Virus record (IMG/VR): IMGVR_UViG_3300020473_000122
Coordinates: 1-24,335 of that record
Origin: a virus
DNA: 24,335 nt
Strand: one strand, 5' to 3'
The notes beneath the pieces were generated by a model, which worked only from the letters and a program-made list of their open reading frames with translations, did not search any database and was not told the DNA's origin. Shown piece by piece: positions 5,428-21,206 of the stretch; position 1 is the first letter of the stretch; every line of letters begins with the position of its first letter. The translations under genes were made by a program, and so were the position numbers.

Positions 5428-8400
5428 ATGGCATCTGTCACAAGGTCATACGCAAATACGACTACGGGAACATTTAGAGATTTTCAGATTTCCTTTAGAA
5501 CTGAAAGAGCTCACGATCCCCTTATTGCGTATAACACAGAATTTGCAGGGTTTTATAATGGCTTCCTAGGCCAATATGCTGGTGGAACAGAGGGTCCTTT
5601 ATCGTGGATGGGTACATTTACATCCACGTATCAAAAATTCACATTGTACAACAAAAACTGGACATCGGAGACATCCGTATATGCCAAGAACTTTGTTGGT
5701 ACAAGAAAATATACAAATTCCCAAACAGGTTATAAGAAAGAGTATGCTCATGAACATGAGTATAATAAAGTATGGACAAAGGCTTGGGAAAAAGATTATA
5801 ATGCTAATTGGTCTAAAGAGTGGACAAAACAATATAGCAAAGATTGGGTTGGATCAACCGGAACATATACAGCAATCTATGAACAAGGATGGGTTGCTGA
5901 TTATGCAATAACGTATACGAAAACTTACGAAGCTGATTATACTGCTACATATGTTGGTAAGGCTGCTATGTGGTCAGGTATCTTTGCGGCCGCAAACATA
6001 TTTAAAGATTATACCGGCGTTTATTCGGCTTCTACTGCGTATACAAGCGTCGTTAGCTTTGCAGCCGACGCCACATACGAGGGTGCAACATATTCCAAGA
6101 GTTATGTTGGAGCAGCAACTGGATATGCTCCAAATTGGAATGGTTTTGTTCCATTCGTGGCTTATTCAAAAACATATTCAGCACCAGCAAACTTTGATAC
6201 CTTATATCTTAAAACGTATTTGGGTGCAAGAGCTTATGGAAGTGATGTTGTTGAGTCAGCAACGTATACAGGAACAACACGCCTTGCTTTCTTTACTGGA
6301 GACTCACCAGGAGTGTTCTACACGAAAGAGTATGTTGGGACAGAACAATCATTTACAGGACTAAACTTAGGAAGGTTTACTAAAGAGTTTGCTGGTGTAG
6401 CTCAGTATGTAAAAGCATACACAAGAGACTTTGAAGGAACGCATGCGTTTACTCCTCAGTTTGCTGGTACAGCTTTTTACACCAAAGCATACACAGGAAT
6501 GAAGTCATACCTAGGTGCTGATAGTGTTTACTATACCGGTGCAGCTAGCTTTGACAAAGCATATGCTGGTACAGAGTCATATACTGGTACTCATAATTTC
6601 ACTGGATACTTCAATAAAGAATATGTTGGTGCTCGTAATTGGGATGGAACATTTATTGGTGCTAGAGATTATAGCGCTGAAGTAGCATATGAAAAACATT
6701 ATGCAAAGAGTTGGGCTGGTGTTGCTGATTATAATGCAACATTTGACGCTGTATTGTTCTATAAGCCAGCAACAAAATCATATGTTAAGGATTACGTTGC
6801 TCATTATGTTGGTACTAGAAACTATACCTCATTCCAATCATTTGAAGGGTCAGAAACACTATACACTGGTGTATATAGAGGCATTGCTGAAAATTCATTT
6901 AGAATGTCAGCTTATGTTGATGGTGATGGTAACATTTTTGTTACATTCGATAAGTTCTATCAAGGTGAGGGACCATCGTTTGCTGGTCCTCGAAGCTACC
7001 ACAAAGATTATGTAGCTGCTTATGTTGGTACTGGACCATCTGGACCTGGTACGTTTACAAAAAATTGGGTTAAAGCATACGTACCATCTGAGACATTTAC
7101 AAAGACATATCTACAAGGGTTTAATGCAGATTATACCAAGTCATGGGAGAGAGCTTGGACAAAGGCATATGATGCTGTATATAGCGCTGCTTATACAAAA
7201 GTTTGGTCAAAAACTTATACCAAATTATACACAGGTAGCTGGTCAGCAACGTATAATAAAATATACACATCGGCTGTTGCTTGGGGTTCGTATCGAGCAG
7301 GTTCTGGTGGTGTGTTTTATGCTGGTCCTAATGGTACTAGAAATATTGACTTCACAAGAGCATGGGAAGGTTCGTGGAGTAAAGATTATGAAAAGTCTTG
7401 GTCGATAGATTATACAGCAGTTTATAATAAAGATTGGACAAAGGCTTGGGAAAAGGATTACCTAAAGACATATGATGCTGTATATACCAAAACATGGGAA
7501 ACAGCTTGGAACAAAGACTACGGAGGATTGGGTGTTGGATTCTCTGCTTATCTTGGTGGTTGGACAGGCACAGCAACTAGCGTTGGATTCTTCGAAGGGA
7601 CTAACTTCTTTGTTAAGGATTGGCAAAAAGATTATGTAGCTGCTTATGATAAAAACTGGGTTAAGACTTACACCAAGAATTGGTTAAAGGACTACGTTGT
7701 TGATTATCAAAAAGACTATGTTGCAACCTATGATAAGAACTGGGTTAAGGCATACGAGGCATCTTATGATAGAGCATACACTAAGATATGGCAAGGTGCT
7801 GCATATCAAAGAAACTATGGTGCAGTTTATACAAAGACGTGGGACAAGGATTATCTCAAAAACTGGGTTAAGACATATACCAAAGATTGGATAACAACAT
7901 ATGACAAAAACTATGTTAAGGCATATGATAAAACATACGACAAAGACTATGTTGGTACGTATGAAAAGAACTGGGTCAAAACATATACTAAAGATTGGTT
8001 AAAAACATATGACAAAGACTGGACAAAAATCTGGCAAAAGGATTATGTTGCTACGTATGAAAAGAACTGGACCAAGACATATACAACAGAGTATCTAAAA
8101 AACTATGTTGGTACATACCTCAAAAGTTGGGACAAGGTTTACACTGCTGGGTTGTGGAATAGAGATTATACCAAAGCCTGGGAGAAAGATTATACAAAAG
8201 CATATGAAGCTAGTTGGGCTAAAACATACGATAAGACCTATGATGCAGTATACAACAAAGATTGGGTAACGCTGTATACAAAGGTCTGGTCGAAAGATTA
8301 TGTTAAAGTATACGGTGGTATATTTACATCCGTGTGGACTAAGGCTTATGATGCTGTGTATACAAAGAATTATGATGCAACGTATACTAAAATCTGGTCT

Positions 8401-11400
8401 AAAAATTGGGTTAAAACGTATACTAAAAACTGGGTCAAAGCATATGATAAAACCTATGATGCAGTATACACCAAAGCATATTCAGCTGCTTATACAAAGG
8501 TTTGGGAAAAGGCATGGTCGAGAGATTGGGGTAAGATTTATAGTGCAGACTATAACAAAGATTATTCAGTTGATTATACTAAGGTATGGACCAAGTCTTG
8601 GTTGAGAGATTACATTAAAGGATATGCTGCAACATATCTTGGTCCTGTGTATTATGGTTCATGGTTGAATGCTAATGGTGTTTTTTATGGAAACTATACA
8701 CCTACAGGAACCAACTGGAATAAGGATTATGTTAAGACATATGTTGGTCAAGTGTTCTTTGGTGGTTTTGCAGCAAACAGAAGTTACAATAAAACATACA
8801 CTAAAACGTGGTTGTTGGCAACAGCATATGATAAACTTTGGGAAAAAGCATACACCAAAAACTTTGACAAAGATTATACTAAAGTCTACACAAAAATTTG
8901 GACCAAAACATACTCCAAAGATTGGGGTAAGGTTTGGACTGCGTTGTATAACAAAACTTACGATGCGGTATATAACAAGGATTGGAATAAAGACTATACC
9001 AAAATTTGGACAAAGGCTTGGGAAAAAGATTACGTTGCTGACTATAATAAAGATTATGTTGCAAACTATGATGCAGTATATACTAAAATCTGGGCCAAAG
9101 ACTATACAAAGGTTTGGGAGAAAACATACGAAGGTGCCTATGGAGCTGCTTGGGAAAAGAATTATGTTAAGGAATACACAACAACCTACGAAAAGGCTTG
9201 GTCAGCTGCGTATACCAAAGTTTGGACAGCTGCATGGGTTAAGAATTACGAAACCAATTACGAGAAGGTATACACCAAAAACTATGATGCTGTGTATACT
9301 AAGACGTATGCTGAAGGTGTTGATTATACCAAGTCATGGGTAGCTGCGTATGATAAGGATTGGGTCAAAACATATACCAAAGATTGGAATAAAGATTACA
9401 CAGCAGCATATGATAAGAACTGGGTCAAAGACTACGATCAAATCTATGTTGGAACGTATATCAAAAACTGGGTTACAGACTACAATAAAGATTATGTAGC
9501 AGCATATGATAAGAACTGGGTTAAGACGTATACCAAAGAATGGCAAAAAGATTACGTTAAGACATACACTAAAAATTGGGTTGTAGATTACAATAAAGAT
9601 TATGTTGCAAACTATGTCAAGACATATACAACAACATACGATAAGGTTTGGCAGGGTGATGTTCTTGGTACCTTCGAAGGTACTTACACTAAGCTCTGGA
9701 CAAAAGATTGGAACAAGACATATGAGAAATCATATGCTGCATTGTATACAAAAATTTATACATCTGCTGTTAACTGGGGTTCATATCAAAACTCAGGTGG
9801 TGTATTCTATGCTGGTCCTCGAGGTGCAAGAAACGTAGACTTCACAAAAACTTGGGAGAAGAGTTGGGTCAAGGCATACGTCAAGACTTATACTACAACA
9901 TACAGTAAAGATTATGTTGGAGCATATATTGGATCTGTTCCAGGTGATTGGAGTACAGATTATGTCAAGGCCTGGTTGAAAAACTGGGAGAAAGACTATG
10001 TTGGATCGTATGACAAAAATTGGGTTAAAACGTATACTAAAAACTGGGTTAAAGATTATATTACCACATACGATAAAGATTATGTTGGTACATATCAAAA
10101 GAATTGGGTTAAAGAATATACTAAAGATTATGCTGGACCAGTTAGTTGGACTGCAGCATATTCTGGTGTTGCATCATACGAAGTAACTAGACAGAAACCA
10201 TTTACACCAACATACACTGGTGATCAAGACTTTGCTCAAGGTTATAAAGGCACGTTGGATACACATACACCATATAGTGGTACGACGTCGTTTGTTGGTC
10301 CTACGACAGGTGAAATGTCAACTGATGCTCCAAGAGTACAAATTAAATATGAAGATAACTGGGAAGTTATTAAGAAACTTCATGTTGTACAAAACAATGC
10401 ATTTAAAGAAGTTAGAACTGGTTTTGTTAAGACTGGTAGTGAGTGGAAAGCATTCCACATTGGTTATAAACACGTCAACATTAATTTAAACAGCAATGAG
10501 TCAACAGGAATTATTGCACAATCAGCTGCTGGTTTGGGTCGTGGTGCAACTACAATTGATGGTAAAGTAACATACTTTGTTAATAACTTGAACTTGAGAA
10601 ACTACCTAGTTGATCGTGGAGATGATCCAGACAACATTCCGCATCTTGTAACAATTACAGTAGGTGAAGATGATGTAACATCTAAGAACTTCATCTTTGG
10701 TTCACAAGATGATAGTGAGGCTTCAATTGACTTGAGTACAATGGTTAAGCCAACTGTTAATGTTGTTGGATCTGTTCAATCAGAAATTTCACATCTTGTC
10801 AAGATAGTAGTTAAACCTTCGGGTTATGTTATCGGCAAGGGCGGTACAGGTGGTAATGCCTTTACTGCTGCTCGAGGTGTTGGGCTGTCTGGTACGGACG
10901 GTGGTAATGCTATCAAGACAGCCAACACTGTCGAGCTATTTATAGAAAATTATGGAATCATCGGTGGTGGTGGAGGCGGTGGTGGAGCCGGTGGAATTAC
11001 CGATCCATATTCAACACCAACCGGTACTTATACTAAGACATATACAGGTCCATCGTATCAAGGTACAACAGGCAATGTCGACTTTGCTAGAGATTATGCT
11101 GTAAATTATTCAGGAACCTTTGAAGGTGATAGAGCTTTCTTACGGACATCGTTTGAAAGAACTGCTGGCTTTGGTGCTGCGTTTGTTGGTGGATTTGGTG
11201 GATCGTTTGTTAGAGATTACAGCAAAGCATACTCCGGTGGAAGTTTTGTTGGTTCAACTGGAACCACATATCAGGGTGGTAATGCTCCAATATTCTATGG
11301 TGGTGATAGTAACACACCAGGTGCATGGTCTCCTGTTGGTACAGCATTTAATAAGTTGTTATTCTTTGGTGGTTTTTCAGGATTAGAACCATACATCGGT

Positions 11401-14400
11401 AGCTTTGTTGGTGGTACATATACCGGTACTGCACAAACATATATTAGAAACTGGCAAAAGAATTTTGACATAACATATGAGAGATCGGCTGGATTTACTG
11501 GTGCGTTTGTTGGAGCATTTACCGGTGCTGAGGCAGCATATAGAGGTAGTTTCTTAAATTATGTTGGTGACTATCAAAAAGATTACCAAAAAGATTTTGG
11601 TGGTGCAGCATCATTTGTAAGAGATGTTGATGGTGAGTCTTATGTTGGGTTTGCTGGTGCAGCAACCAACTTTGTTAAGCACTTTGTTGGATCAGGAACG
11701 GGTGATGTATTTGCAACAACCTATTCAGACTCATTTGTAAAAGGTTATCAAAGATCATTTGAAGGCACACAGTTTACTCGAGTGACTGCTGTTAACTTTA
11801 CTGGTGCATATAGTCAAATTTATACCGGTTCATTTGTTGGTGAGTATGGTAAAAACTACGTACCAACATACACTGCAACTTGGGGTACTAATTTTGCCAA
11901 AGACTTTGCTTCAACAGGAATATCAACGTTTGTAGGAACAACAGGTTCATTTACTGGCACTGGTACAGTTAACTACGAAACAAACTTTACTGTAGAATAT
12001 TCAAGAGCATATGAGCCAACAACAATTAGTTCATCATTTGATAAGGCATATGAATCATCGTTTATAAGAACAGATGGATTTACTGGAAACTTTCAAGAGC
12101 AATATATTGGAACATACACTAAATCATACTCTAAGTTGTTTGGTGGTGTTGTGGCTTCTGGGTTTGTCACATACTCCGGAGCCTCTTCAGATTTCAATGC
12201 TACAGCAGGATTTAGTGGTGCCTTAGATTACCAGAAAATTTATGCACCAACGTTTGTTGAATCTTACAGCAGACAAGCGTTTGCTGGTTCGTTCAGTAAC
12301 ATATTTACCACATTAGCATTTGATGGTGATTCTTACGCACATACGTATGTTGATAGTGACTCTGTTGCTTCCTACACTGGAAACTTTACAGCAACGTATG
12401 CAAAGACTTATGAAAAGGTTTGGTCGGCTAGTTATGATGGATCATTCACAAATGATCTAACTGGTGCTGTAAGAGGATACACAATAAGTGGTTTCAGTGG
12501 TCCATATCGACAAGAACGTACTTCACCAGAAGTGGATCTATTCTGGAGCGGTAGTCCGTATGTCGATATGTTCGAAAAAACATATGAAAAGATTTGGACT
12601 GGTCTTAAAGATGTTGAAACAGTATTTACAAAGACGTATCATGGAACAAGTGCTGTCTTCTATCCGAGAACTTACGTTTTCGAAGATGATTCCACTGGAG
12701 ATTTCCGATCATTTACTAAAGGTTGGCAAGCACACGAATCACGTGCTTACACCAAGGAATATACTGGTAACGTTGAAGAACTTAAAAACTATGCAGCACA
12801 ATACACTAAGAGTTGGCATGGTCCTGGCACACGTTATACTGGTTCGACGGGTCCCTTTACTAAAGACTGGACAGCTTCGTATATTAAGAACTATGCTAAG
12901 TCATGGGAAGGGGCTGCATATAGTAAAGATTGGGATGTAACTGGAACATTTGTCAAGGATTGGACAGGTACGTATAGCTCTGTAAGATCATTTGTTTCAT
13001 ATCAAAGAGCTAGCTTTGATGGAACAGCATTTGGTAAGACATACTCTAGCTTTGCTGTATATAGAACACAAGAAACACAGTTTGCAGGTGATTGGTCTAA
13101 GCAGTGGGCTAAAGAGTTTAATGTTAACTTTGGTTCGTCTGTTGTTAATTATGCTGCTGGTGGTGCTACAGATTATTCAGCAACATACGCAGCGTTCTAT
13201 GGTCAATTGTTTGCTGGTGAGTTTGGTAAAGACTATAATGTTAATTACAGTGGTGCATATATCAAAGACTTTACAAATGAGTTTGTTGGTTCTACATTTA
13301 CAGGTGCGTTTACCAAAAATTGGAACATTACATTTACTAATTCATGGCTCAAGACGTACGGAAGAGAGTCTGTAGCAAGCTATACGTTAGGTACATTTGA
13401 GGGTACATATCAAACCAGCTTCTTGCCACTAGAATACATAAAGGCATTTATTGGTTCGTGGACTGGTACATATGTCAAAAATTATGGTGTGTTTGAGAAA
13501 CTTTATGCCAACCAAAACTGGGATAGCTCATGGCAACGTGGATATCCAGGAGCATACATTAACACAGGATTTGAAGGTCTGCCAACCTTTACTGCAGCTT
13601 ATGTTGGTTCTAGTGGAACATTCTTAAAAGATTGGGTGGGTGCAACAGGTTTCGAATCATACGGAGCAATCCAAACAACTTACGAAGGTAATACAGCAAC
13701 AACATATCAAGGTGGGGCTGGTAACTTCGAAGGTAGAAATTATGTGTCGGTTGCATATCAACAAGGAAGGTTCCAGGCTGGATTTGGTGATTCATATACG
13801 CAGACGTTTAGTACAACATTCAATGATGAGTATGCTAGAGGATATGATGCTCAAGCGTTTAGTGGATTTACAGATTGGACTAAGACGTATGCCAAAGACT
13901 ATGCTATCACATCAGTAGGCGCCTTCACAAAGGCTTGGGGTGCTACGTATTCTAAAAACTGGGTGGCCACTTACACTAAAGATTGGCAGAAGATCTTTGC
14001 TCGGACGTATCAAGTTACTGCAACTTATAACGATGAGCTGTTTTATGGTTCATATGCCAGAAACTGGTTGGGTGCATACAGAGGAACATTTGACACTTCA
14101 TTCCAAGGTCAATTGTATGTTGGTAATTATGTTGAAATATTCTACGGTGGTTTCTCTCGATTGTATGCTTCATACACAGGAACAATTGATTACAATAAAG
14201 ATTTTGTTACTAACTTTACTACTAACTACAGTAAAGATTGGGCAAGAGAGTATGCTGATGCTTCATCATACTTAACCACATACGAAAAACAGTTTGCTGG
14301 TAGTTATGCAAAGGATTATCAAGGTACAGCTTACCAAGGTGATATTACCGTATCATATCTTGGTGTTGTTGAAACATCTGGTACTGCTGGATCTGGTGGT

Positions 14401-14730
14401 GCTGGTTTCCAAGTTGGTAGAACGGGTACAACAGGAGCACCTGTAGCTCATCTCCATATTGAGCCAGGTGATGGTGGATTACTCAATGGTGGTAAGATGG
14501 GTAAACCAAAGATTGAATTTGGACATACCAAGGTCAATGGTGGTATTGGTGGTAACCTTGGTAACATGGGTAGTGGTGGTGGTGAACATTACCAACGAAA
14601 GACTAGATATGCTCAATCTGGAGATGGAGGGTTGCCTGGAGCCGCCATTAAGGGGTATAATGCTAACTTCGTGACGTTCATCCATACAGGTAACGTATTA
14701 GGGGATCCTCAGTTTAAATACGTAACCTAA
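5428..14730 (+). CDS. Giant aromatic tetrapeptide-repeat tail fibre / adhesin
   Basis: A single uninterrupted gene of 3100 codons; AAGGA lies 9-10 bases before the ATG. Most of the protein has an aromatic residue at every fourth position. Residues about 95-145 and 543-1568 are [Y/W]-x-K-x repeats (for example YTKNWVKTYTKDW), while residues about 150-540 and 1857-2981 mostly use Gly instead of Lys (for example FVGxYxGxF). Residues 1630-1856 are different: a Trp-containing segment (YEDNWEVIKKLHVV, TGSEWKAFH) of the type repeated in phage fibres, then a beta-rich domain ending in a run of eight glycines. The last 119 residues return to Gly-rich sequence and the ending GAAIKGYN...GNVLGDPQF, typical of phage glycine-rich tips. 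So the second repeat arm appears inserted into the tip domain. Host binding is inferred from context. No signal peptide, enzyme motif or transmembrane segment was seen. Its size is far above T4 gp34 or gp37. Confidence 0.9.
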   Translation: MASVTRSYANTTTGTFRDFQISFRTERAHDPLIAYNTEFAGFYNGFLGQYAGGTEGPLSWMGTFTSTYQKFTLYNKNWTSETSVYAKNFVGTRKYTNSQTGYKKEYAHEHEYNKVWTKAWEKDYNANWSKEWTKQYSKDWVGSTGTYTAIYEQGWVADYAITYTKTYEADYTATYVGKAAMWSGIFAAANIFKDYTGVYSASTAYTSVVSFAADATYEGATYSKSYVGAATGYAPNWNGFVPFVAYSKTYSAPANFDTLYLKTYLGARAYGSDVVESATYTGTTRLAFFTGDSPGVFYTKEYVGTEQSFTGLNLGRFTKEFAGVAQYVKAYTRDFEGTHAFTPQFAGTAFYTKAYTGMKSYLGADSVYYTGAASFDKAYAGTESYTGTHNFTGYFNKEYVGARNWDGTFIGARDYSAEVAYEKHYAKSWAGVADYNATFDAVLFYKPATKSYVKDYVAHYVGTRNYTSFQSFEGSETLYTGVYRGIAENSFRMSAYVDGDGNIFVTFDKFYQGEGPSFAGPRSYHKDYVAAYVGTGPSGPGTFTKNWVKAYVPSETFTKTYLQGFNADYTKSWERAWTKAYDAVYSAAYTKVWSKTYTKLYTGSWSATYNKIYTSAVAWGSYRAGSGGVFYAGPNGTRNIDFTRAWEGSWSKDYEKSWSIDYTAVYNKDWTKAWEKDYLKTYDAVYTKTWETAWNKDYGGLGVGFSAYLGGWTGTATSVGFFEGTNFFVKDWQKDYVAAYDKNWVKTYTKNWLKDYVVDYQKDYVATYDKNWVKAYEASYDRAYTKIWQGAAYQRNYGAVYTKTWDKDYLKNWVKTYTKDWITTYDKNYVKAYDKTYDKDYVGTYEKNWVKTYTKDWLKTYDKDWTKIWQKDYVATYEKNWTKTYTTEYLKNYVGTYLKSWDKVYTAGLWNRDYTKAWEKDYTKAYEASWAKTYDKTYDAVYNKDWVTLYTKVWSKDYVKVYGGIFTSVWTKAYDAVYTKNYDATYTKIWSKNWVKTYTKNWVKAYDKTYDAVYTKAYSAAYTKVWEKAWSRDWGKIYSADYNKDYSVDYTKVWTKSWLRDYIKGYAATYLGPVYYGSWLNANGVFYGNYTPTGTNWNKDYVKTYVGQVFFGGFAANRSYNKTYTKTWLLATAYDKLWEKAYTKNFDKDYTKVYTKIWTKTYSKDWGKVWTALYNKTYDAVYNKDWNKDYTKIWTKAWEKDYVADYNKDYVANYDAVYTKIWAKDYTKVWEKTYEGAYGAAWEKNYVKEYTTTYEKAWSAAYTKVWTAAWVKNYETNYEKVYTKNYDAVYTKTYAEGVDYTKSWVAAYDKDWVKTYTKDWNKDYTAAYDKNWVKDYDQIYVGTYIKNWVTDYNKDYVAAYDKNWVKTYTKEWQKDYVKTYTKNWVVDYNKDYVANYVKTYTTTYDKVWQGDVLGTFEGTYTKLWTKDWNKTYEKSYAALYTKIYTSAVNWGSYQNSGGVFYAGPRGARNVDFTKTWEKSWVKAYVKTYTTTYSKDYVGAYIGSVPGDWSTDYVKAWLKNWEKDYVGSYDKNWVKTYTKNWVKDYITTYDKDYVGTYQKNWVKEYTKDYAGPVSWTAAYSGVASYEVTRQKPFTPTYTGDQDFAQGYKGTLDTHTPYSGTTSFVGPTTGEMSTDAPRVQIKYEDNWEVIKKLHVVQNNAFKEVRTGFVKTGSEWKAFHIGYKHVNINLNSNESTGIIAQSAAGLGRGATTIDGKVTYFVNNLNLRNYLVDRGDDPDNIPHLVTITVGEDDVTSKNFIFGSQDDSEASIDLSTMVKPTVNVVGSVQSEISHLVKIVVKPSGYVIGKGGTGGNAFTAARGVGLSGTDGGNAIKTANTVELFIENYGIIGGGGGGGGAGGITDPYSTPTGTYTKTYTGPSYQGTTGNVDFARDYAVNYSGTFEGDRAFLRTSFERTAGFGAAFVGGFGGSFVRDYSKAYSGGSFVGSTGTTYQGGNAPIFYGGDSNTPGAWSPVGTAFNKLLFFGGFSGLEPYIGSFVGGTYTGTAQTYIRNWQKNFDITYERSAGFTGAFVGAFTGAEAAYRGSFLNYVGDYQKDYQKDFGGAASFVRDVDGESYVGFAGAATNFVKHFVGSGTGDVFATTYSDSFVKGYQRSFEGTQFTRVTAVNFTGAYSQIYTGSFVGEYGKNYVPTYTATWGTNFAKDFASTGISTFVGTTGSFTGTGTVNYETNFTVEYSRAYEPTTISSSFDKAYESSFIRTDGFTGNFQEQYIGTYTKSYSKLFGGVVASGFVTYSGASSDFNATAGFSGALDYQKIYAPTFVESYSRQAFAGSFSNIFTTLAFDGDSYAHTYVDSDSVASYTGNFTATYAKTYEKVWSASYDGSFTNDLTGAVRGYTISGFSGPYRQERTSPEVDLFWSGSPYVDMFEKTYEKIWTGLKDVETVFTKTYHGTSAVFYPRTYVFEDDSTGDFRSFTKGWQAHESRAYTKEYTGNVEELKNYAAQYTKSWHGPGTRYTGSTGPFTKDWTASYIKNYAKSWEGAAYSKDWDVTGTFVKDWTGTYSSVRSFVSYQRASFDGTAFGKTYSSFAVYRTQETQFAGDWSKQWAKEFNVNFGSSVVNYAAGGATDYSATYAAFYGQLFAGEFGKDYNVNYSGAYIKDFTNEFVGSTFTGAFTKNWNITFTNSWLKTYGRESVASYTLGTFEGTYQTSFLPLEYIKAFIGSWTGTYVKNYGVFEKLYANQNWDSSWQRGYPGAYINTGFEGLPTFTAAYVGSSGTFLKDWVGATGFESYGAIQTTYEGNTATTYQGGAGNFEGRNYVSVAYQQGRFQAGFGDSYTQTFSTTFNDEYARGYDAQAFSGFTDWTKTYAKDYAITSVGAFTKAWGATYSKNWVATYTKDWQKIFARTYQVTATYNDELFYGSYARNWLGAYRGTFDTSFQGQLYVGNYVEIFYGGFSRLYASYTGTIDYNKDFVTNFTTNYSKDWAREYADASSYLTTYEKQFAGSYAKDYQGTAYQGDITVSYLGVVETSGTAGSGGAGFQVGRTGTTGAPVAHLHIEPGDGGLLNGGKMGKPKIEFGHTKVNGGIGGNLGNMGSGGGEHYQRKTRYAQSGDGGLPGAAIKGYNANFVTFIHTGNVLGDPQFKYVT
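7258..7380 (+). repeat. Inter-repeat module, copy 1
   Basis: This encodes KIYTSAVAWGSY, GGVFYAGPNGTRN and IDFTRAWEGSW. It is a close copy of the module at 9751-9867, with several substitutions and one short length difference. Both interrupt the Lys-type tetrad array and imply a past internal duplication of a larger unit. Confidence 0.8.
9751..9867 (+). repeat. Inter-repeat module, copy 2
   Basis: This encodes KIYTSAVNWGSY, GGVFYAGPRGARN and VDFTKTWEKSW, matching copy 1 at 7258-7380. A more distant version (YYGSWLNANGVFYGNY) lies near 8650-8700. Confidence 0.8.
10315..10995 (+). other. Globular and Gly-rich domain inside the giant fibre
   Basis: Residues 1630-1856 break the tetrad pattern. 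They contain a Trp-bearing motif, a stretch with ordinary beta-protein composition (VTITVGEDDV, KIVVKPSGYVIGKGGTGG) and a terminal run of eight Gly plus AGG. The arrangement matches the start of glycine-rich tip domains in other phage tail proteins, whose end is found only at 14371-14727. Confidence 0.7.
10996..14370 (+). repeat. Gly-type aromatic tetrapeptide repeat array, inserted in the tip domain
   Basis: Residues 1857-2981 again place Phe, Tyr or Trp every fourth position, but the intervening residues favour Gly, Thr and Ser over Lys, with short Lys-type patches near 13876-14000. The array is less regular than the first and Phe-rich. It separates two halves of a Gly-rich domain. Confidence 0.75.
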
Positions 14731-14762: not shown

Positions 14763-15491
14763 ATGGCAGAAGTTGAACCCGCCAGCTCTGAGGCAGAGCT
14801 TGTTAATAGAGAAATTGATAAAAGAATTCCGGAAGGTGAAGTCGATTACGAAGCACCTCACGATGAGGACGCTTTGGCTGATCAGGTCAAAGCAGAGGAG
14901 CCTGAAGCCGATGAACGTAAAGATCGGTTAGGTTTACATAGAGCTCCTCCTGATCTTGAGACAAACTATTGGACGCATTTTCCGGTTGATAGTAAGAAGG
15001 AGACCGAAATGGCAGAAACGCCAGTTGAACAGGATCCCCAAAAAGATCATGAGTATCCGTTTGGTGATGCTCAATTAATATATGCATTTTATGCAAATGA
15101 TAGAAGGGACGTAATTAAGTTCTTTCTGAGAATGCCTGATGATAAGGTGTCAGATCATTCTATTGATAAGAATCCAATCCACGAAGGTGCCTGGCATTGG
15201 ATTCGTAGAACCTTTACTGAAGATCAGTTGGGTGAGAATACTCAACGTGAGATCAGCAAAATTAATCGTTTCCGAGAAAAAGAAGAAGAGGAAATGAAAG
15301 AGCGTGAACGTAAAGGTAAACAAGAAGAATTGTTCCAAGCTAAGTTATCAGCATTTGAGATTCCAGCTGTTACTAATAGTAAACACAGAGAGCTGAAATC
15401 TAATATTCGTAAAGCAAAGACTACTATGGAAGTCAATGCTACTGTTGGTGCATTAATAGCTTTGGAGTATATTGATGGAAAGGCACAATAA
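14763..15491 (+). CDS. Acidic protein of unknown function, coiled coil
   Basis: This encodes 242 residues from the ATG at 14763; AAGG at 14751-14754 lies 8 bases upstream, so an in-frame GTG at 14754 is part of the ribosome site and not the start. The first 95 residues are strongly acidic, Pro/Glu-rich and probably disordered. Residues 96-155 look folded (YPFGDAQLIYAFYANDRRDVIKFFLRMP, GAWHWIRRTF). Residues 158-195 are a charged helix, probably coiled coil. The end (LKSNIRKAKTTMEVNATVGALIALE) is a helical tail. The gene follows the giant fibre by 32 bases and overlaps the next gene by 17. No family was recognised; an assembly factor for the fibre is one possibility, based on position only. Confidence 0.8.
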   Translation: MAEVEPASSEAELVNREIDKRIPEGEVDYEAPHDEDALADQVKAEEPEADERKDRLGLHRAPPDLETNYWTHFPVDSKKETEMAETPVEQDPQKDHEYPFGDAQLIYAFYANDRRDVIKFFLRMPDDKVSDHSIDKNPIHEGAWHWIRRTFTEDQLGENTQREISKINRFREKEEEEMKERERKGKQEELFQAKLSAFEIPAVTNSKHRELKSNIRKAKTTMEVNATVGALIALEYIDGKAQ

Positions 15492-16353
15492 CGGCTTTCT
15501 ATATGTTGGATCACTAAGTAAAGTTTACTATGATGCGGCAGTAATGTCAGGTGAGTCAATCAAAGACTACTGGCCAGAAGCTAACCTTACATTGTTCACT
15601 CACGATAAATGGGTTGATGATAGATGCAGAAGCATCTTTCAAAATGTTATAACAGATGTTCCGGTACATTGTCGGGCTAAGCTGTGGGCATTAGATCAAA
15701 CACCATACATTAAAACTGCATATATGGATGCTGATACTTATTGTGAGTCTGAGAGAATAAAAGACTTATTCGAAGAGCTACCTGATAACTATGATATGGT
15801 CATGACAGAAAATAGACCATACAATGCTAAGGTTGTATACTTCACAAACGAGGAGGAATTGCGTCACTACGATAAAGAGCACAAACCTCTTATCTGGGAG
15901 AATGGTGACGAAGAGAATGGCAAACCACTATATGCTGTACACAAATGGGAGCCTACAGCTAATAGTGGAGTGTATCGTATGAGATGGCATTGTGGGATGT
16001 TCATATATAATAATAAGCCACACACGCTAAAGATGTTGAATATGTGGTATCAAAACTACCGTATACAAATTGAAAATAAGAAAGGATGGGAAAAGATATT
16101 TAACTATCCTAAGTCGTTGTGGTTTTGGGATACGTTTGCGTTTTGGAGAACTAATTTTGAGGTTAACTATGAGGTTAAGATTAAGGAGATTCATCCAAAG
16201 TGGAACTTTGTAAGAGGATATAGGGATTGGGAAAAGGACGAAGATGGTCACATCATGTTTCATTACACAATTCCAAACGAGATGATAGATAAGGAGATAT
16301 TGGATGACCCCGATATACGAAATACAATCGGAGATTTTGACGTACTTAGATAG
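15475..16353 (+). CDS. Glycosyltransferase-like protein (GT-A fold, DxD)
   Basis: This encodes 292 residues from the ATG at 15475, with GGAG at 15463-15466 and a 17-base overlap with the previous gene. The sequence looks like a nucleotide-sugar transferase: an N-terminal beta-strand and helix (FLYVGSLSKVYYDAAVMSGESIKDY), FTHDKW, and the metal/nucleotide-binding motif in IKTAYMDADTYC with Asp85 and Asp87. WHCGMFIYNN (acceptor side) and a C-terminal FHYT follow. In such enzymes the DxD aspartates coordinate a metal and the sugar nucleotide. It is not closely similar to the three minus-strand transferases downstream. The substrate and acceptor cannot be read from the sequence. It overlaps the oxygenase-like gene by 50 bases. 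Confidence 0.75.
   Translation: MERHNNGFLYVGSLSKVYYDAAVMSGESIKDYWPEANLTLFTHDKWVDDRCRSIFQNVITDVPVHCRAKLWALDQTPYIKTAYMDADTYCESERIKDLFEELPDNYDMVMTENRPYNAKVVYFTNEEELRHYDKEHKPLIWENGDEENGKPLYAVHKWEPTANSGVYRMRWHCGMFIYNNKPHTLKMLNMWYQNYRIQIENKKGWEKIFNYPKSLWFWDTFAFWRTNFEVNYEVKIKEIHPKWNFVRGYRDWEKDEDGHIMFHYTIPNEMIDKEILDDPDIRNTIGDFDVLR
16291..16298 (+). promoter_or_regulatory. Strong ribosome binding site within the preceding gene
   Basis: AAGGAGAT, with GGAG 7 bases before the ATG at 16304. It supports a start 50 bases inside the glycosyltransferase-like gene over the later TTG at 16337. Confidence 0.8.
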
Positions 16354-17092
16354 CTGGAAAGATTTTGTATGGAGCCTAAACCTGGAAGAAACTTTTGGTC
16401 CAAATGGTACATACAGAGACAAAGGCGGTAAGTTTTTTAGGGAGAATAGATCAAAACATGCAACAAGTATAGAATGTCTTAGGTCCATGGATCACATGGA
16501 GCATGATGGATTTCCACCGGACAGTTATGGTTATGATTTTAACCAGATTGGTAAGTGGCTTGAAAGAAATATGATTAGTCATAAAGATGCTAAGCCTTTG
16601 ATAGAAAAGAGTAATGAGTTAGATGAAACGCTCGGTGCTTATTTGGGTACAAGATTTTGTGCTTTAAAAATGTGGTATCCAGCTGATGGATATATTGCTT
16701 GGCATACAAATTGGAACGTACCAAGTTACAACATTCTATTTACATACAACTCAGGTGAGGATGGTGATGGTTATTGGAGGCATATTGATCCAACCGGTTC
16801 AGATTCACCACTACCAAATAAAATTAATGAGGGAGATGGTCACAGCAAGTTAATGCATATACCTGATCCACATGGCTGGTCTTGTAAGGTTGGTTATTAT
16901 GGACGCAAAGAGGAACATGAAAAGATTGTTTGGCATTCAGCCTATGCTAGTGCACCTAGAATGACGTTGGGTTATGTTGTATATGAAGAGGTGTTGTGGA
17001 GAGATATGGTTGAAGAGATTGCAGGATCACAAGATGTGTGGCCACTTGCTCCATACAGTGAAGAGATGCATGCTAAGTATGTAAAAGGTTAA
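16304..17092 (+). CDS. 2OG-Fe(II) oxygenase-like protein
   Basis: This encodes 262 residues; the start is fixed by the AAGGAGAT site. The central part (GYIAWHTNWNVPSYNILFTYN, GDGYWRHIDP) and the later IVWHSAYASAPRMTLGYVVYEE match the layout of phage 2OG-Fe(II) dioxygenases. The likely iron ligands are His134 and His211, and Arg219, eight residues after the distal His, would bind 2-oxoglutarate. The position normally held by Asp or Glu in the HxD motif is Asn136 here (HTN), so the iron site may be atypical or the third ligand may come from elsewhere. Such enzymes hydroxylate proteins, sugars, lipids or nucleobases; the substrate here is unknown. The gene ends 4 bases into the convergent minus-strand operon. 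Confidence 0.7.
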   Translation: MTPIYEIQSEILTYLDSWKDFVWSLNLEETFGPNGTYRDKGGKFFRENRSKHATSIECLRSMDHMEHDGFPPDSYGYDFNQIGKWLERNMISHKDAKPLIEKSNELDETLGAYLGTRFCALKMWYPADGYIAWHTNWNVPSYNILFTYNSGEDGDGYWRHIDPTGSDSPLPNKINEGDGHSKLMHIPDPHGWSCKVGYYGRKEEHEKIVWHSAYASAPRMTLGYVVYEEVLWRDMVEEIAGSQDVWPLAPYSEEMHAKYVKG

Positions 17093-17505
17093 ACAAACCT
17101 ACCTCTACCACCTTCTTGATAGTATTTGTGTGACTTGTTAGCTATATTAACTAATGTGTAATACAATAACTGCTCCCAATGTGGTGCATCGTCAATAGCA
17201 CCTCCTCGAGCAAAGTTAATGCCATCAACTCTATAGTTTGCAATGCAATACAACACATACCATATGTCATTGATATCGTTGTAATCAACCATTCCCCAAC
17301 CTTTATAATGTATACATCTCTTTATAGCTCTAAGCCTAACATCCTCATGTAACGCTGCTTCTAGTTTTTCCAATATTGGTTGAATGTGTTTCCATTCCTT
17401 CTCAGCTTCCATATTGAAGAATCGACCAAATAATTGTTGTGTATATAATAAGATGAAGAAACCATATACCTGGCTATCCATCTTAGGCTCTAATGAATAA
17501 GTCAT
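17089..17505 (-). CDS. Hypothetical protein, last gene of the minus-strand operon
   Basis: This encodes 138 residues. The ATG overlaps the stop of the upstream methyltransferase-like gene as ATGA, and AGGTG lies 7 bases before it. The protein is helix-rich and aromatic (VYGFFILLYTQQLFGRFF, DINDIWYVLYCIANYRVDGI, WEQLLYYTLVNIANKSHKYY). The N-terminal 30 residues are hydrophobic but contain no clear signal peptide. The segment VRLRAIKRCIHYKGWGMVDYNDI resembles no motif I can place. Its job is presumably linked to the sugar and methyl transfer genes with which it is co-transcribed. Its last 4 bases overlap the convergent oxygenase-like gene. Confidence 0.8.
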   Translation of the reverse strand: MTYSLEPKMDSQVYGFFILLYTQQLFGRFFNMEAEKEWKHIQPILEKLEAALHEDVRLRAIKRCIHYKGWGMVDYNDINDIWYVLYCIANYRVDGINFARGGAIDDAPHWEQLLYYTLVNIANKSHKYYQEGGRGRFV

Positions 17506-18131
17506 TGCATAGCACCTATAACCATTATTCTTTTATTTCGAAGTATCTCTCTAACACCAGTATCATATATTCTTTTTAGTCCAGCTTGCTTTGCTAGTTC
17601 TTCTGGTGTATCAACACAATTGATGTGCATCCATTGAACATTTCTATTATCATTGCTTTGGAATGCAAACACTTTCTTATCTGTGTTCATTGATGTTAAC
17701 TCTTTCATATCAAACATATGTTCACAAGAACAATTTATAAACGTATCACCAGTAAAGTCAATATCATCAAATACCACATCGTTAGTTTTAACAGTAACTA
17801 AATCATCGTCATCAAAGATGTGGCTTGCTATCTCAGTAGTGTACCAATCTACATCATATAAGTTAAACTTAATGTGTGTGCCCAAATAATATTTAAGAAA
17901 TGGTACTATGACAATACCATACCAGCTAGCCGCTATATCAATCTCTTGGATATCTATCTTGTTGTGCTCCACAACTCCTCTAAGTCTTTCACCAAGCCAG
18001 TTCTTACTTTGGATCTGGGTTTCAAATATACACTCAGAATAATCTTTAAACTTATATACATGATTATGGTTGACATACACCATTCCTTTATGATATAATC
18101 TATAAATCTGGTTAAGAACTGGATGGAACAT
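17502..18131 (-). CDS. SAM-dependent methyltransferase-like protein
   Basis: This encodes 209 residues. It has the order of class I methyltransferase motifs: a motif I-like EIDIAASWYG at residues 63-72 at the end of strand 1, an acidic strand-2 end in FNLYDVDWY (Asp93, Asp95), and a strand-4-like FINCSCEHMFDM at residues 131-142. INxSCEHM is a pattern I associate with small methyltransferase-like proteins of marine phages. Motif I lacks the usual GxGxG, so binding of S-adenosylmethionine should be treated as likely, not certain. The gene overlaps the transferase upstream by 20 bases and the gene downstream by 4. Whether the acceptor is a sugar, a protein or a small molecule is unknown. Confidence 0.65.
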   Translation of the reverse strand: MFHPVLNQIYRLYHKGMVYVNHNHVYKFKDYSECIFETQIQSKNWLGERLRGVVEHNKIDIQEIDIAASWYGIVIVPFLKYYLGTHIKFNLYDVDWYTTEIASHIFDDDDLVTVKTNDVVFDDIDFTGDTFINCSCEHMFDMKELTSMNTDKKVFAFQSNDNRNVQWMHINCVDTPEELAKQAGLKRIYDTGVREILRNKRIMVIGAMQ

Positions 18132-18804
18132 CGTACCCCCACATTTTCTTTAATACTGTTTCTTTGTCTTGTACGTTGTCGAGAATACAAACAACATGGT
18201 TACTATCTCTCATAACATCTTGCTCACTATCATCTGGATACATTGATCCATACTTTAGACTGTAAGCTAGTTTTGGAGGTAAGAAGTTTACCAAGTCTGA
18301 GTGTCTACGGAACACCCATCCATCAATTCCATAAAAGCTCTTGAATATCTTTTCCATATTGCTTTTATACTCGTGCCACAACTCTTCGTAGTTGTTTTGA
18401 TGTATAACCATTATAGATGAGTTAACATTACAGTTATGGACTATCTTTGCCATCTCGTCACTAAACCAATGCGTTCTAAGAAAGTTTGGTTTATCATGGC
18501 TTGATCGATAAACTAATTGGTCAATTGGATTATGGATTACGCAATCAAGATCAAAGAATACTGTTGGATTGTTAAATAAGCCAGGCTGCCAAAGGTATGT
18601 TTTGTTCCACCACATTCTTTCATCATGACGTGGCTCAAACGTAACACACTTAACCTCTGGATTAATGCCACGAGGATTATCAGTATAGCAATAGAAGTCA
18701 CCTACGTGATGTTTTGAGAATTGTTTATATAATTGGTTGACAAATTCAGCTTTATAAGCTATACCAACTTTCATACAAACAGCGTCTATAGATACTGCTT
18801 CCAT
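18112..18804 (-). CDS. Glycosyltransferase-like protein, paralogue 3
   Basis: This encodes 230 residues. The motifs are shared with the two genes before it in the operon: an N-terminal strand IDAVCMKVG, FYCYTDN, MWWNKTYL, PTVFFDLDCVIHNPIDQLV with Asp85 and Asp87 as the DxD, VNSSIMV, an Asp in GIDGWVF, and FLPPKLAYSLKYG. These fit a GT-A nucleotide-sugar transferase. The start at 18804 is preferred over Met11 because SIDAVCMKVG aligns with QINVFCIKT at the start of paralogue 1. It overlaps the previous gene by 19 bases. It is the shortest of the three. Donor and acceptor are unknown. Confidence 0.75.
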   Translation of the reverse strand: MEAVSIDAVCMKVGIAYKAEFVNQLYKQFSKHHVGDFYCYTDNPRGINPEVKCVTFEPRHDERMWWNKTYLWQPGLFNNPTVFFDLDCVIHNPIDQLVYRSSHDKPNFLRTHWFSDEMAKIVHNCNVNSSIMVIHQNNYEELWHEYKSNMEKIFKSFYGIDGWVFRRHSDLVNFLPPKLAYSLKYGSMYPDDSEQDVMRDSNHVVCILDNVQDKETVLKKMWGYDVPSSS

Positions 18805-19547
18805 ATATCAGCTACCCATCCTTCCTCTATATCAAGAGGATCAGGCTCATGGTCCTCCATAAAAATACATACCGAATAATCATCTCGTTTTATATATTTA
18901 GCATAGCGGTCTACACTAAAGCTGTCTGGATAATCTCCACCTCTATTGTATGAGTATACAGTTTTGGGTGGATAGGTATGCATTGTGTTTCTCCATACTC
19001 TCCATAAGTATGCATCTGAGCTATACAACGATGCCTTTGCTTTTGTATAATGTTTGCAAAAGTGGTTCCATATATCATTTGTAACTGGTTGTGTGTTATC
19101 AACATATATCAAACTTGCATTGAACAACATTGTTAGAAAGTAATTGCCACCATGCATACCAACTTGCCATGGAGGCATCCATCTAGTCCCAATGATTGCA
19201 GGTGTTGGTGTTTCTACTACTCTATCTAGCGGCCCATGGAATAAGTTATCAAGATCAGAAAACAATATTCTTCCCTCGATACCACATAACTTAGGGGCAA
19301 ACAATGACATTTTGATTGCATCCCAAAACCACCACTGATCCATTGATAGTATATCGTCCCACAACCACTTTTCTGTTGTTTCGACGACTCTTATATCTTC
19401 ATCCAAACCATTGCCATTATCAGTCATACAATATGAGTTAAACTCACAAGGCATCCATCTTTTTGCCATACGATGTATTAGGTTTGGATATTCAGGTGGA
19501 AACTTCGAGCCCCACTTTATTGTAAGTAAGTTCAATTGGCTTTCCAT
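18786..19547 (-). CDS. Glycosyltransferase-like protein, paralogue 2
   Basis: This encodes 253 residues from the ATG at 19547. That start puts the first beta-strand (LNLLTIKWG) right after the N-terminus, as in its paralogues; an in-frame TTG at 19601 would only lengthen the overlap. It carries FNSYCMTDN, WFWDAIKMSLF, RILFSDLDNLFHGPLDRVV with Asp98 and Asp100 as the DxD, a His-Gly-Gly segment, FNASLIYVD, SSDAYLWRVW and YPPKTVYSYNRGG. The fold and metal-dependent sugar transfer are inferred from these motifs. No strong Shine-Dalgarno site is present, so coupling to the upstream gene (56-base overlap) is likely. The substrate is unknown. Confidence 0.75.
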   Translation of the reverse strand: MESQLNLLTIKWGSKFPPEYPNLIHRMAKRWMPCEFNSYCMTDNGNGLDEDIRVVETTEKWLWDDILSMDQWWFWDAIKMSLFAPKLCGIEGRILFSDLDNLFHGPLDRVVETPTPAIIGTRWMPPWQVGMHGGNYFLTMLFNASLIYVDNTQPVTNDIWNHFCKHYTKAKASLYSSDAYLWRVWRNTMHTYPPKTVYSYNRGGDYPDSFSVDRYAKYIKRDDYSVCIFMEDHEPDPLDIEEGWVADIWKQYL

Positions 19548-20412
19548 CTTCGTCGGTACGTATCCCTTCATCATCAAATATTTGTCGAAGTTCTCGAGCA
19601 ACAGTTGATTTGACCTTATAGTCTAATGGTACTGGGTCTCCACTTTCTGCAAAGTGTGCATGAACTCTATGCTTTTTTTTTCCGTATCCATTTAGCATTC
19701 TGACAAAGTATTCTGGTCTTTGTTTAAATGCATCCTTGTCTTTTGGAAAGAACTCTGATCCTTCCTCAGCACCATAGAAGAAACTATAAAAGATTCCTCG
19801 TGGAAAGAAGTTTAGAATATCTTTGTGATATAGATTTAGATACTCATCGTTGCCTCTTAAAACAACCATATGCTTATCCATATCTTGTCTAAACTGATTC
19901 CATATAAATTCTAACTCATCATCATACCACATCATAAATGAGCTATTCATTAATGTTACGTGCTTGAAGAACGGATTAAAGCCAGATGCTGGATATGCTT
20001 GACGCTCCCAATCTATTGGTTTGAAGTAGCAGTATATTGTTGTTAGTTTATCGTGTACTGCATACTGAACAATATCTGTTATGTCTCTTTGTATTACTGT
20101 ATCAAGATCAATATAAATGTTTAGTCCTGGTTGTGTATACGGTTTCTTGAATAGTAACATCTTATTCCACCAACCCCACATATCATATTTGGACACATCC
20201 ATTAGGTTGACATCAGGAGAAGATATTGTTGATTCATTGGTAAGACAAAAGAAACGGATATTACGTTTAAAGCGTTGATCAAGCTGGTTCTTTAGCTCCA
20301 TTACGTGTGTGTCAAGATAGAATTCATTACTATCAAATTCATCTTGTATTGGACCACCACCATAATCTCTATGCACCGTCTTTATACAAAAGACGTTAAT
20401 CTGATCTGTCAT
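19492..20412 (-). CDS. Glycosyltransferase-like protein, paralogue 1
   Basis: This encodes 306 residues from the ATG at 20412, chosen because GAAGGTGG lies just 4 bases before it; an ATG at 20445 has no such site. The motif order is INVFCIKTVHRDYGGG, IRFFCLTNE, GWWNKMLLFKKP, LNIYIDLDTVIQRDITDIV with Asp102 and Asp104 as the DxD, MNSSFMMWYDDELEFIW, GNDEYLNLY and FFPRGIFYSFFYG. It is a GT-A-type transferase by these features, longer than its two paralogues by a C-terminal tail of about 50 residues. It overlaps the unknown gene upstream by 17 bases and paralogue 2 downstream by 56. Acceptor and sugar are unknown. Confidence 0.75.
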   Translation of the reverse strand: MTDQINVFCIKTVHRDYGGGPIQDEFDSNEFYLDTHVMELKNQLDQRFKRNIRFFCLTNESTISSPDVNLMDVSKYDMWGWWNKMLLFKKPYTQPGLNIYIDLDTVIQRDITDIVQYAVHDKLTTIYCYFKPIDWERQAYPASGFNPFFKHVTLMNSSFMMWYDDELEFIWNQFRQDMDKHMVVLRGNDEYLNLYHKDILNFFPRGIFYSFFYGAEEGSEFFPKDKDAFKQRPEYFVRMLNGYGKKKHRVHAHFAESGDPVPLDYKVKSTVARELRQIFDDEGIRTDEDGKPIELTYNKVGLEVST

Positions 20413-20806
20413 TAATCCACCTTCTAGTAATCGTGAGATAATCATCTACACGTTCAAATACTTTACACCCTCTCCTTAATAAGATCAACGGTTCTGCATC
20501 AGCTGATACTATAATATCTTGAAATCTATGGTGATCTATTGCTACGGAGAATGTTTTCATCTTTGCAACACCACTATTTCTAAACTTTTTGAAGCTCTTT
20601 TGAATAATGTGTGTACGTAATTCGACACTGTAATCAAACTTCAGTCTTGTACGAGTCTTGAAATCTCCTACAGATAAATATGCTTGATACGTGTCTTCAT
20701 ACGTGGTGATAAACCAATACGGCCACCGTTTGTGATTATACGGTAAACGTAAATGGTCAAGTTCTGTTGTTCTTGATTCAAAATAGTCGGGAAGTGATGT
20801 ATTCAT
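20396..20806 (-). CDS. Hypothetical protein, first gene of the minus-strand operon
   Basis: This encodes 136 residues starting at the ATG at 20806, 55 bases from the divergent late gene. The protein is basic and aromatic (LPYNHKRWPYWFITTYEDTYQAYL, KTRTRLKFDY, RRGCKVFERVDDYLTITRRW). It has no signal peptide or membrane segment, and no family was recognised. It leads the glycosyltransferase operon, overlaps the first transferase by 17 bases and is presumably translated with it. No convincing promoter was found upstream on this strand; the intergenic region is AT-rich and holds a 12-base palindrome. Confidence 0.75.
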   Translation of the reverse strand: MNTSLPDYFESRTTELDHLRLPYNHKRWPYWFITTYEDTYQAYLSVGDFKTRTRLKFDYSVELRTHIIQKSFKKFRNSGVAKMKTFSVAIDHHRFQDIIVSADAEPLILLRRGCKVFERVDDYLTITRRWINDRSD

Positions 20807-20826: not shown

Positions 20827-20834
20827 TATAAATA
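20827..20834 (+). promoter_or_regulatory. T4-type late promoter TATAAATA
   Basis: A perfect match to the T4 late-promoter core, which is read by a gp55-type sigma factor with the sliding clamp. It lies in the 55-base divergent intergenic gap, 27 bases before the ATG at 20862, and would give a short leader containing AGGAG. It partly overlaps a 12-base perfect palindrome (20829-20840). Confidence 0.75.
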
Positions 20835-20861: not shown

Positions 20862-21206
20862 ATGGCTGAAAAAGCAAATATTTTTCTGGATAAGGGATCA
20901 AACTTTACAACCACAATTGATGTTGTAGATACTAGTGGTGTCTCTGTCAATATGGCAGCATACACTGTGTCTAGTACGATTAAGGCATCCCACAGTAATG
21001 CCCAAATTAATGCTACTTCAACCTCCAATCTTACTTTTACAACTGCCGGCTATGCTAACGGTTCTGTTGTGCTTTCCCTAACAGGCGTTCAAACAGGTTA
21101 CTTAGTAGACGATAAAAGATATGTATATGACGTAAAGGTCGTTACAGGGAGCACAACAACCAAGCTAGTAGAAGGATTTATGACAGCTCGAGCTAGTGCA
21201 ACATGA
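20862..21206 (+). CDS. Small virion-type protein upstream of gp13
   Basis: This encodes 114 residues; AGGAG at 20851-20855 sits 6 bases before the ATG. It is an all-beta-looking protein: ANIFLDKGSNFTTTIDVVD, AYTVSSTIKAS, GSVVLSLTGVQTGYLVDDKRYVYDVKV and a last strand KLVEGFMTA. Proteins of this appearance are common beside the neck genes of T4-like cyanophages and pelagiphages and resemble immunoglobulin-like or baseplate-upper-protein N-terminal domains; the name and exact role are not known to me. It is the first gene after the late promoter and overlaps the next small gene as ATGA. Confidence 0.8.
   Translation: MAEKANIFLDKGSNFTTTIDVVDTSGVSVNMAAYTVSSTIKASHSNAQINATSTSNLTFTTAGYANGSVVLSLTGVQTGYLVDDKRYVYDVKVVTGSTTTKLVEGFMTARASAT

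Follow-up and report, generated by a model that had tools for sequence, protein, structure and literature searches.

A giant aromatic-tetrad phage fibre accompanied by glycosyltransferase-like and oxygenase-like genes: a putative fibre-maturation operon

Organization of the fibre locus

The subject of this analysis is a giant repeat fibre, together with the genes that accompany it, within the virus record IMGVR_UViG_3300020473_000122 (termed here the window, that is, the whole stretch of 24,335 bases), for which a search of the phage collection yielded no close relative at the DNA level. The fibre is followed by an island of genes (14763-20806), beyond which lie s114 and homologues of gp13, gp14 and gp15. 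This island is real and has two layers: a core on the strand of the fibre, consisting of the fibre itself and of the genes termed g242, GT1 and OX, and a block of six genes on the other strand. Because every island gene is kept over dozens of contigs, chance open reading frames (ORFs) are excluded. An earlier note on this DNA gave the island's coordinates and strands correctly: three of its genes are on the (+) strand and six (u138, MT, GT2, GT3, GT4 and u136) are on the (-) strand and run, as that note also said, against the late transcripts.

The gene order in the window runs from a VrlC-like gene through an S74-type fibre piece and the 3100-residue giant fibre to the island, and from there to the gp13, gp14 and gp15 homologues; the first of these genes, an ORF at 1-4242, matches the baseplate protein VrlC of HTVC008M (E-value 1e-24). 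In pelagimyophages, which are T4-like marine phages, the interval from VrlC to gp14 is termed the 'host recognition cluster' (PMC7029224). The window matches a cluster of this type, with which it shares both the position between VrlC and gp14 and the presence of tail fibres and GT8 glycosyltransferases.

The giant fibre (5428..14730, + strand), which is the putative substrate of the enzymes considered below, has an aromatic residue at every fourth position, in the form [Y/W/F]-x-[K/G]-x. Its aromatic autocorrelation at lag 4 is 3.2-fold, and over 21 fibres this value is 3.1 to 4.1 times expectation. Tyr, Thr and Ser are indeed frequent within it, as had been pointed out before (Y 10.9%, T 12.1%, S 6.6%), and its residues 1782-1871 match phrog_2056 (tail fibre host specificity). 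The tetrad consensus is mostly [Y/F/W]-[T/S]-[G/K]-x, and the chemistry of the repeat depends on the clade: fibres close to that of the window are rich in K/W, those of a sister group in Q/G, and that of phage C48C1 in R/S/G. At least 57 of the 63 fibres adjoining g242 have the C-terminus R-x-A or R-x-S (LWxRxA-type); the fibres of the window, L004 and L064 end not in this but in a Gly-rich tip. Both types of fibre occur in tandem in some relatives; of such a tandem the second fibre has apparently been lost from the window, which retains GT1 and OX. Since both the window and L004 retain these two genes though their fibre lacks an LWxRxA-type C-terminus, it is the repeat that is the common feature.

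Neither this class of aromatic tetrad fibre nor its linkage to enzymes is described in the open-access literature searched (subscription papers lay outside that search), and the linkage is provisionally regarded as new to the literature. The passages of PMC7029224 consulted likewise describe neither such a fibre nor its fixed partners, and that paper, unlike the present analysis, reads the cluster's enzymes as lipopolysaccharide (LPS) genes.

Directly behind the fibre, and on its strand, lie g242 (14763-15491), which encodes a charged protein of 242 residues; GT1 (15475..16353), a predicted GT8-fold glycosyltransferase whose frame overlaps that of g242 by 17 bases; and OX (16304..17092), which has a predicted 2-oxoglutarate (2OG) oxygenase-like fold, the residue pattern H134-x-N136...H211...R219 and a 50-base overlap with GT1. 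The position of g242 between fibre and GT1 is kept in the fibre loci.

Co-occurrence of the fibre with g242, GT1 and OX

Fibres of this kind were sought by two homology-free DNA pattern scans of viral contigs, in which a Tyr codon was required at every fourth position together with a purine or GG opening the tetrad's third codon. The loci so detected are of two kinds, phage fibres and unrelated low-complexity repeats. Among the matches listed, g242, GT1 and OX lie downstream in 45 of 45 fibre-like loci having at least 2.5 kb of downstream sequence--loci that correspond to 37 GT1 clusters at 90%, with a median identity of 36% among the cluster representatives--and no GT1 or OX gene lies beside an unrelated low-complexity Tyr repeat. 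When all loci are combined, 83/83 carry the trio, and g242 specifically is found at 83/83 fibre loci whose downstream sequence reaches at least 2.5 kb, counts that include loci retrieved through the enzymes as well as repeated contigs. Six loci that failed the fibre filter also have enzyme matches, and their repeats are short pieces of this type of fibre; where a locus was too short, a search of its whole record yielded further positives; and, apart from two exceptions taken up below, the negatives inspected are fibres that reach, or lie close to, the end of a contig.

In the reverse direction, a tetrad fibre occurs within 4 kb upstream at 75/75 GT1 loci for which at least 2.5 kb of preceding sequence is available, and an aromatic-rich fibre occurs upstream at 51/51 OX loci for which this length is at least 3.5 kb, 49 of these fibres having a regular period of four; the OX-locus search was separate from the GT1 search but shares contigs with the earlier ones. 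One half of the condition that the earlier note had set as refuting fibre decoration, namely that the island should occur in numerous phages lacking any repeat fibre, was thereby checked, and it did not refute the idea. Of the co-occurrence that it had suggested between island and fibre, g242-GT1-OX proves to be the constant part, and the six-gene block is optional. Gene order is tight as well: within 98 same-strand triplets, g242 and GT1 abut or overlap in 89, and GT1 and OX in 90. The linkage of the fibre with g242, GT1 and OX is near-obligate in distant, mostly uncultivated phages.

This linkage bears upon the notion that the enzymes act on some other virion protein (neck, baseplate or capsid) to which the fibre is a mere neighbour. 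The presence nearby of s114 and the neck genes would fit such a target, but the linkage emerged from a search for fibre repeats alone, and the remaining structural neighbours vary by locus while the fibre and its three partner genes persist; this explanation is accordingly rated improbable, and the capsid, which the earlier note had offered as an option, gains no support.

The same module is found in phage C48C1 (OQ984149, Kyanoviridae; 141-153 kb), where a 3347-residue repeat fibre, g242, GT1, OX and an s114 relative follow one another in the order seen in the window; all of these module genes except the s114 relative are annotated as hypothetical. C48C1 differs from the window in that its repeats contain R/S/G instead of K/W and in that the MT/GT2-4 block was not found in it.

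Predicted enzymes and the opposite-strand block

Structural models of GT1 and OX were built by AlphaFold2 from 25-row alignments. For the GT1 model (predicted local distance difference test, pLDDT, 88.9), Foldseek returns glycogenin first (E 1e-8) and 113 PDB matches at E<=0.001, of which the best 50 are glycogenin, UGGT and LgtC (probability 1.00, template modelling (TM) score 0.41-0.50). Glycogenin, a GT8 enzyme, is thus the best fold match, at an identity of 13-15%. Both D85 and D87 (the DxD motif) and H263 (a C-terminal metal-binding His) are kept in at least 90% of 71 sequences. This confident model indicates that GT1 carries a GT-A/GT8 fold closest to that of glycogenin. By sequence, GT1 has no PHROG match, a single sub-threshold Pfam match to a GT2 family (E 0.013) and, as its best PDB match, Skp1 galactosyltransferase (E 0.07); because it falls into no curated sequence family, a GT8-like fold is claimed for it rather than curated membership. 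Eight GT1 relatives from bacterial genomes (L290-L297) are lone genes, with no fibre or OX detected beside them; the ninth such locus, L289, carries the full module.

The OX model (pLDDT 84.5) points toward the 2OG oxygenases. Its best 50 listed PDB matches, which bear on a possible double-stranded beta-helix fold, all belong to these enzymes (JmjC, PHD2, ALKBH-type and related), though weakly, at TM-scores of about 0.2-0.3; within a viral structure library its top match is an uncharacterised phage protein (TM 0.70/0.83), below which many of the weaker matches are annotated 2OG-Fe(II) oxygenases. Residues H134, N136, H211 and R219 are invariant in 66/66 aligned sequences (that of the window and a single representative of each 90% GT1 cluster) and again in a second set (37/37). 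Throughout the family, therefore, the metal site is HxN...H, with Asn replacing the acidic ligand of the HxD/E...H triad, and R219, which is located 8 residues past the distal H211, is the basic residue expected for 2OG binding. The previously proposed label of a 2OG-Fe(II) oxygenase-like gene is favoured by the (weak) fold matches and by R219, but OX matches no curated sequence family and, given its invariant HxN instead of HxD/E, is termed oxygenase-like and is not filed as a member of the 2OG oxygenases. Aspartyl/asparaginyl beta-hydroxylase is a 2OG oxygenase that is active without an acidic metal ligand; OX would likewise have to work without one, but has an invariant Asn at that position.

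Kinship of OX with the oxygenases and hydroxylases of Mosig was considered and rejected, as there is no profile similarity to the three compared, among them the Asp_Arg_Hydrox protein. The stretch of Mosig that separates fibres from neck genes encodes four proteins annotated as 2OG oxygenases (L066:13249-17104), two of which were compared with OX and lack profile similarity to it. In three contigs (L194, L214 and L254) OX is on the strand opposite to GT1, which means that its expression can be uncoupled from that of the operon.

The six-gene block begins with u136 (20396..20806) and ends with u138 (17089..17505), both of which are kept along with it. Between them lie GT4 (19492..20445; phrog_1962, E 3e-12, with an invariant DLD), GT3 (18786..19547; conserved DLD), GT2 (18112..18804; phrog_1962, E 4e-13, conserved DLD) and MT (17502..18131; conserved YDxD and IN.S.EHM). 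The four glycosyltransferase-like genes reported earlier are thereby upheld to differing degrees: GT2 and GT4 by phrog_1962, GT1 by its predicted GT8 fold, and GT3--the best conserved gene of the block, at an identity of mostly about 70-80%--by a weak phrog_1962 match (E 0.0036). A kinship between GT4 and GT1 was discarded, profile comparison showing no similarity. 'Methyltransferase-like' is the weakest label of the island: MT resembles methyltransferases in motifs noticed by eye, and has no Pfam, PHROG or PDB sequence match, hence no profile match to a known family of class I SAM methyltransferases.

Relatives may keep this block, invert it as a whole (L008, L011, L013 and L014) or lack it (it was not found in L015-L033), and it is thus an optional layer. 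Within 49 homology-free GT1 clusters, the MT family occurs in 18 and the GT2-4 families in 28, both of which are lower bounds inasmuch as many loci end early; a frequent arrangement, 'MT- GT- GT- GT-' on the opposite strand, is that of the window. The zero count of MT/GT2-4 in a comparison group is supportive only, that group having been defined partly by lacking GT1. An invertible switch at the block was rejected: its borders in the window carry no inverted repeats, the matches seen in relatives span just 8-12 bases, and the four contigs with an inverted block likewise show no long inverted repeats at its borders.

Such mobility would fit the view that all of these genes are hitchhikers, carried along in a variable hotspot and functionally unrelated to the fibre: gain, loss and inversion affect the six-gene block as one unit, three contigs have OX inverted, and the region is known as a variable island (PMC7029224). 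Cargo would, however, often be lost, whereas the core shows no losses in the assessable loci beside such fibres and keeps its order; there is little chance, therefore, that hitchhiking accounts for it.

The principal alternative is that the host envelope is what the enzymes modify, with GT1-GT4 and MT altering O-chain sugars and thereby blocking the binding of superinfecting phages or of released progeny, and that the genes travel with the fibre since fibre and receptor must match. This corresponds to the published reading of GT8-rich pelagimyophage host recognition clusters (again PMC7029224); LgtC, a GT8 member, is among the Foldseek matches of GT1; and the optional opposite-strand block could have its own transcript. 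Yet GT1 and OX form an overlapping run directly behind the fibre and g242, and this order persists although the median identity among the GT1s is 36%; modification of LPS would not be expected to involve a partner resembling a protein hydroxylase; and the enzymes track a single repeat architecture, Mosig and P-SSM2 being without such a fibre in the region (HTVC008M is partly covered). A host-envelope target is on balance considered unlikely, though it deserves more credence than another virion target or hitchhiking does.

Immediately downstream of the island, s114 (20862..21206, + strand) encodes a small protein matching phrog_1084 and phrog_3304 ('L-shaped tail fiber protein assembly'), and stands behind the module in many relatives. 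Searches of the window for tRNA and Rfam families returned no matches, and T4-type late promoters were dismissed because TATAAATA occurs at chance frequency in the window (3 found, 2.4 expected). One copy of TATAAATA is at 20827-20834, 27 bases ahead of s114.

Proposed fibre maturation

The fibre, g242, GT1 and OX probably constitute one fibre-maturation operon, with the predicted enzymes modifying the repeats and the block extending the glycan. Because GT1 and OX are fixed in position behind a single repeat architecture and have overlapping frames, the fibre is favoured over the host surface as their target; the suggestion of fibre decoration made in the earlier note is, to this extent, supported by the constant linkage of g242-GT1-OX to the repeat fibre. 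Under this proposal g242 would aid folding or presentation of the fibre; a known chaperone is dismissed, g242 having no family match in profile searches, and from its position it is proposed as a putative fibre chaperone or adaptor. OX would oxidise side chains within the aromatic tetrads; GT1 would place the first sugar on the repeats, with Tyr or Thr as its likeliest site; and the optional opposite-strand genes (GT2-4 and MT) would lengthen and cap that glycan. The phage would thereby gain a long host-binding fibre bearing dense decoration, with a glycan that varies between phages. More tentatively, the aromatic tetrad fibre, a class that the papers searched do not describe, may become functional through dedicated oxidation and glycosylation, the predicted His-Asn-His oxygenase-like and glycogenin-like enzymes decorating many Tyr/Thr residues and a swappable cassette setting the outer glycan--a specific picture that is possible but doubtful.

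Several observations weigh against fibre maturation. A 586-residue YSGSYTG repeat protein (L105, 3086-4846) has neither GT1 nor OX in its 36-kb contig, and L241, which has few tetrads, is a weaker exception without the enzymes; conversely, L341 and L363 retain OX beside an aromatic-rich fibre with irregular repeats. TM-scores are at fold level for GT1 (0.41-0.50), and GT8 also contains LPS enzymes; OX scores lower, at about 0.2-0.3, and departs from the usual metal triad. In favour of the operon, GT1 distances correlate with those of OX (r 0.86) and g242 (0.77) and with fibre composition (0.45), but these correlations are confounded by phylogeny. Finally, a receptor-binding protein travelling with receptor-modifying genes could give the same linkage.

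As to the residue that would be modified, the repeat regions of 56 fibres contain at least 5.8% Thr throughout and at least 15.2% Tyr, the latter minimum--another caution--being partly by construction, as the scans selected on Tyr. In contrast, K, P, D, N, R and W each fall to 0% in some of these regions. Pro, Lys and Asp/Asn were therefore rejected as a universal repeat target, each being absent from some fibres that retain both enzymes, and Tyr or Thr fits a single shared target; since the scans chose Tyr, Thr is given equal weight. Glycogenin glucosylates Tyr, and the likeness of the GT1 model to it, at fold level only, leans toward Tyr; glycogenin is self-glucosylating, unlike GT1 as proposed. 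Pairs of a protein hydroxylase and a glycosyltransferase occur with collagen hydroxylysine and Skp1 hydroxyproline, where a side chain is oxidised and then glycosylated; these pairs target Lys and Pro, residues that the repeats of certain fibres lack even though both enzymes are retained.

Phage fibres are usually regarded as plain protein, whereas the predicted enzymes and their linkage suggest that the phages of this large group chemically decorate their host-binding fibres. If a widespread phage group does carry such dedicated enzymes, then prediction of host range from fibre sequence alone is incomplete, GT8 genes labelled as LPS modification need re-reading, and an unannotated long repeat fibre gains a testable assembly pathway; the period-4 pattern, moreover, is an easy genomic marker of the system. 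A full module with three fibre ORFs is also present in L289 (JAAXIF010000028.1), a contig binned as a Sphingobacteriales metagenome-assembled genome, which is possibly a phage contig and, if so, a hint at a host.
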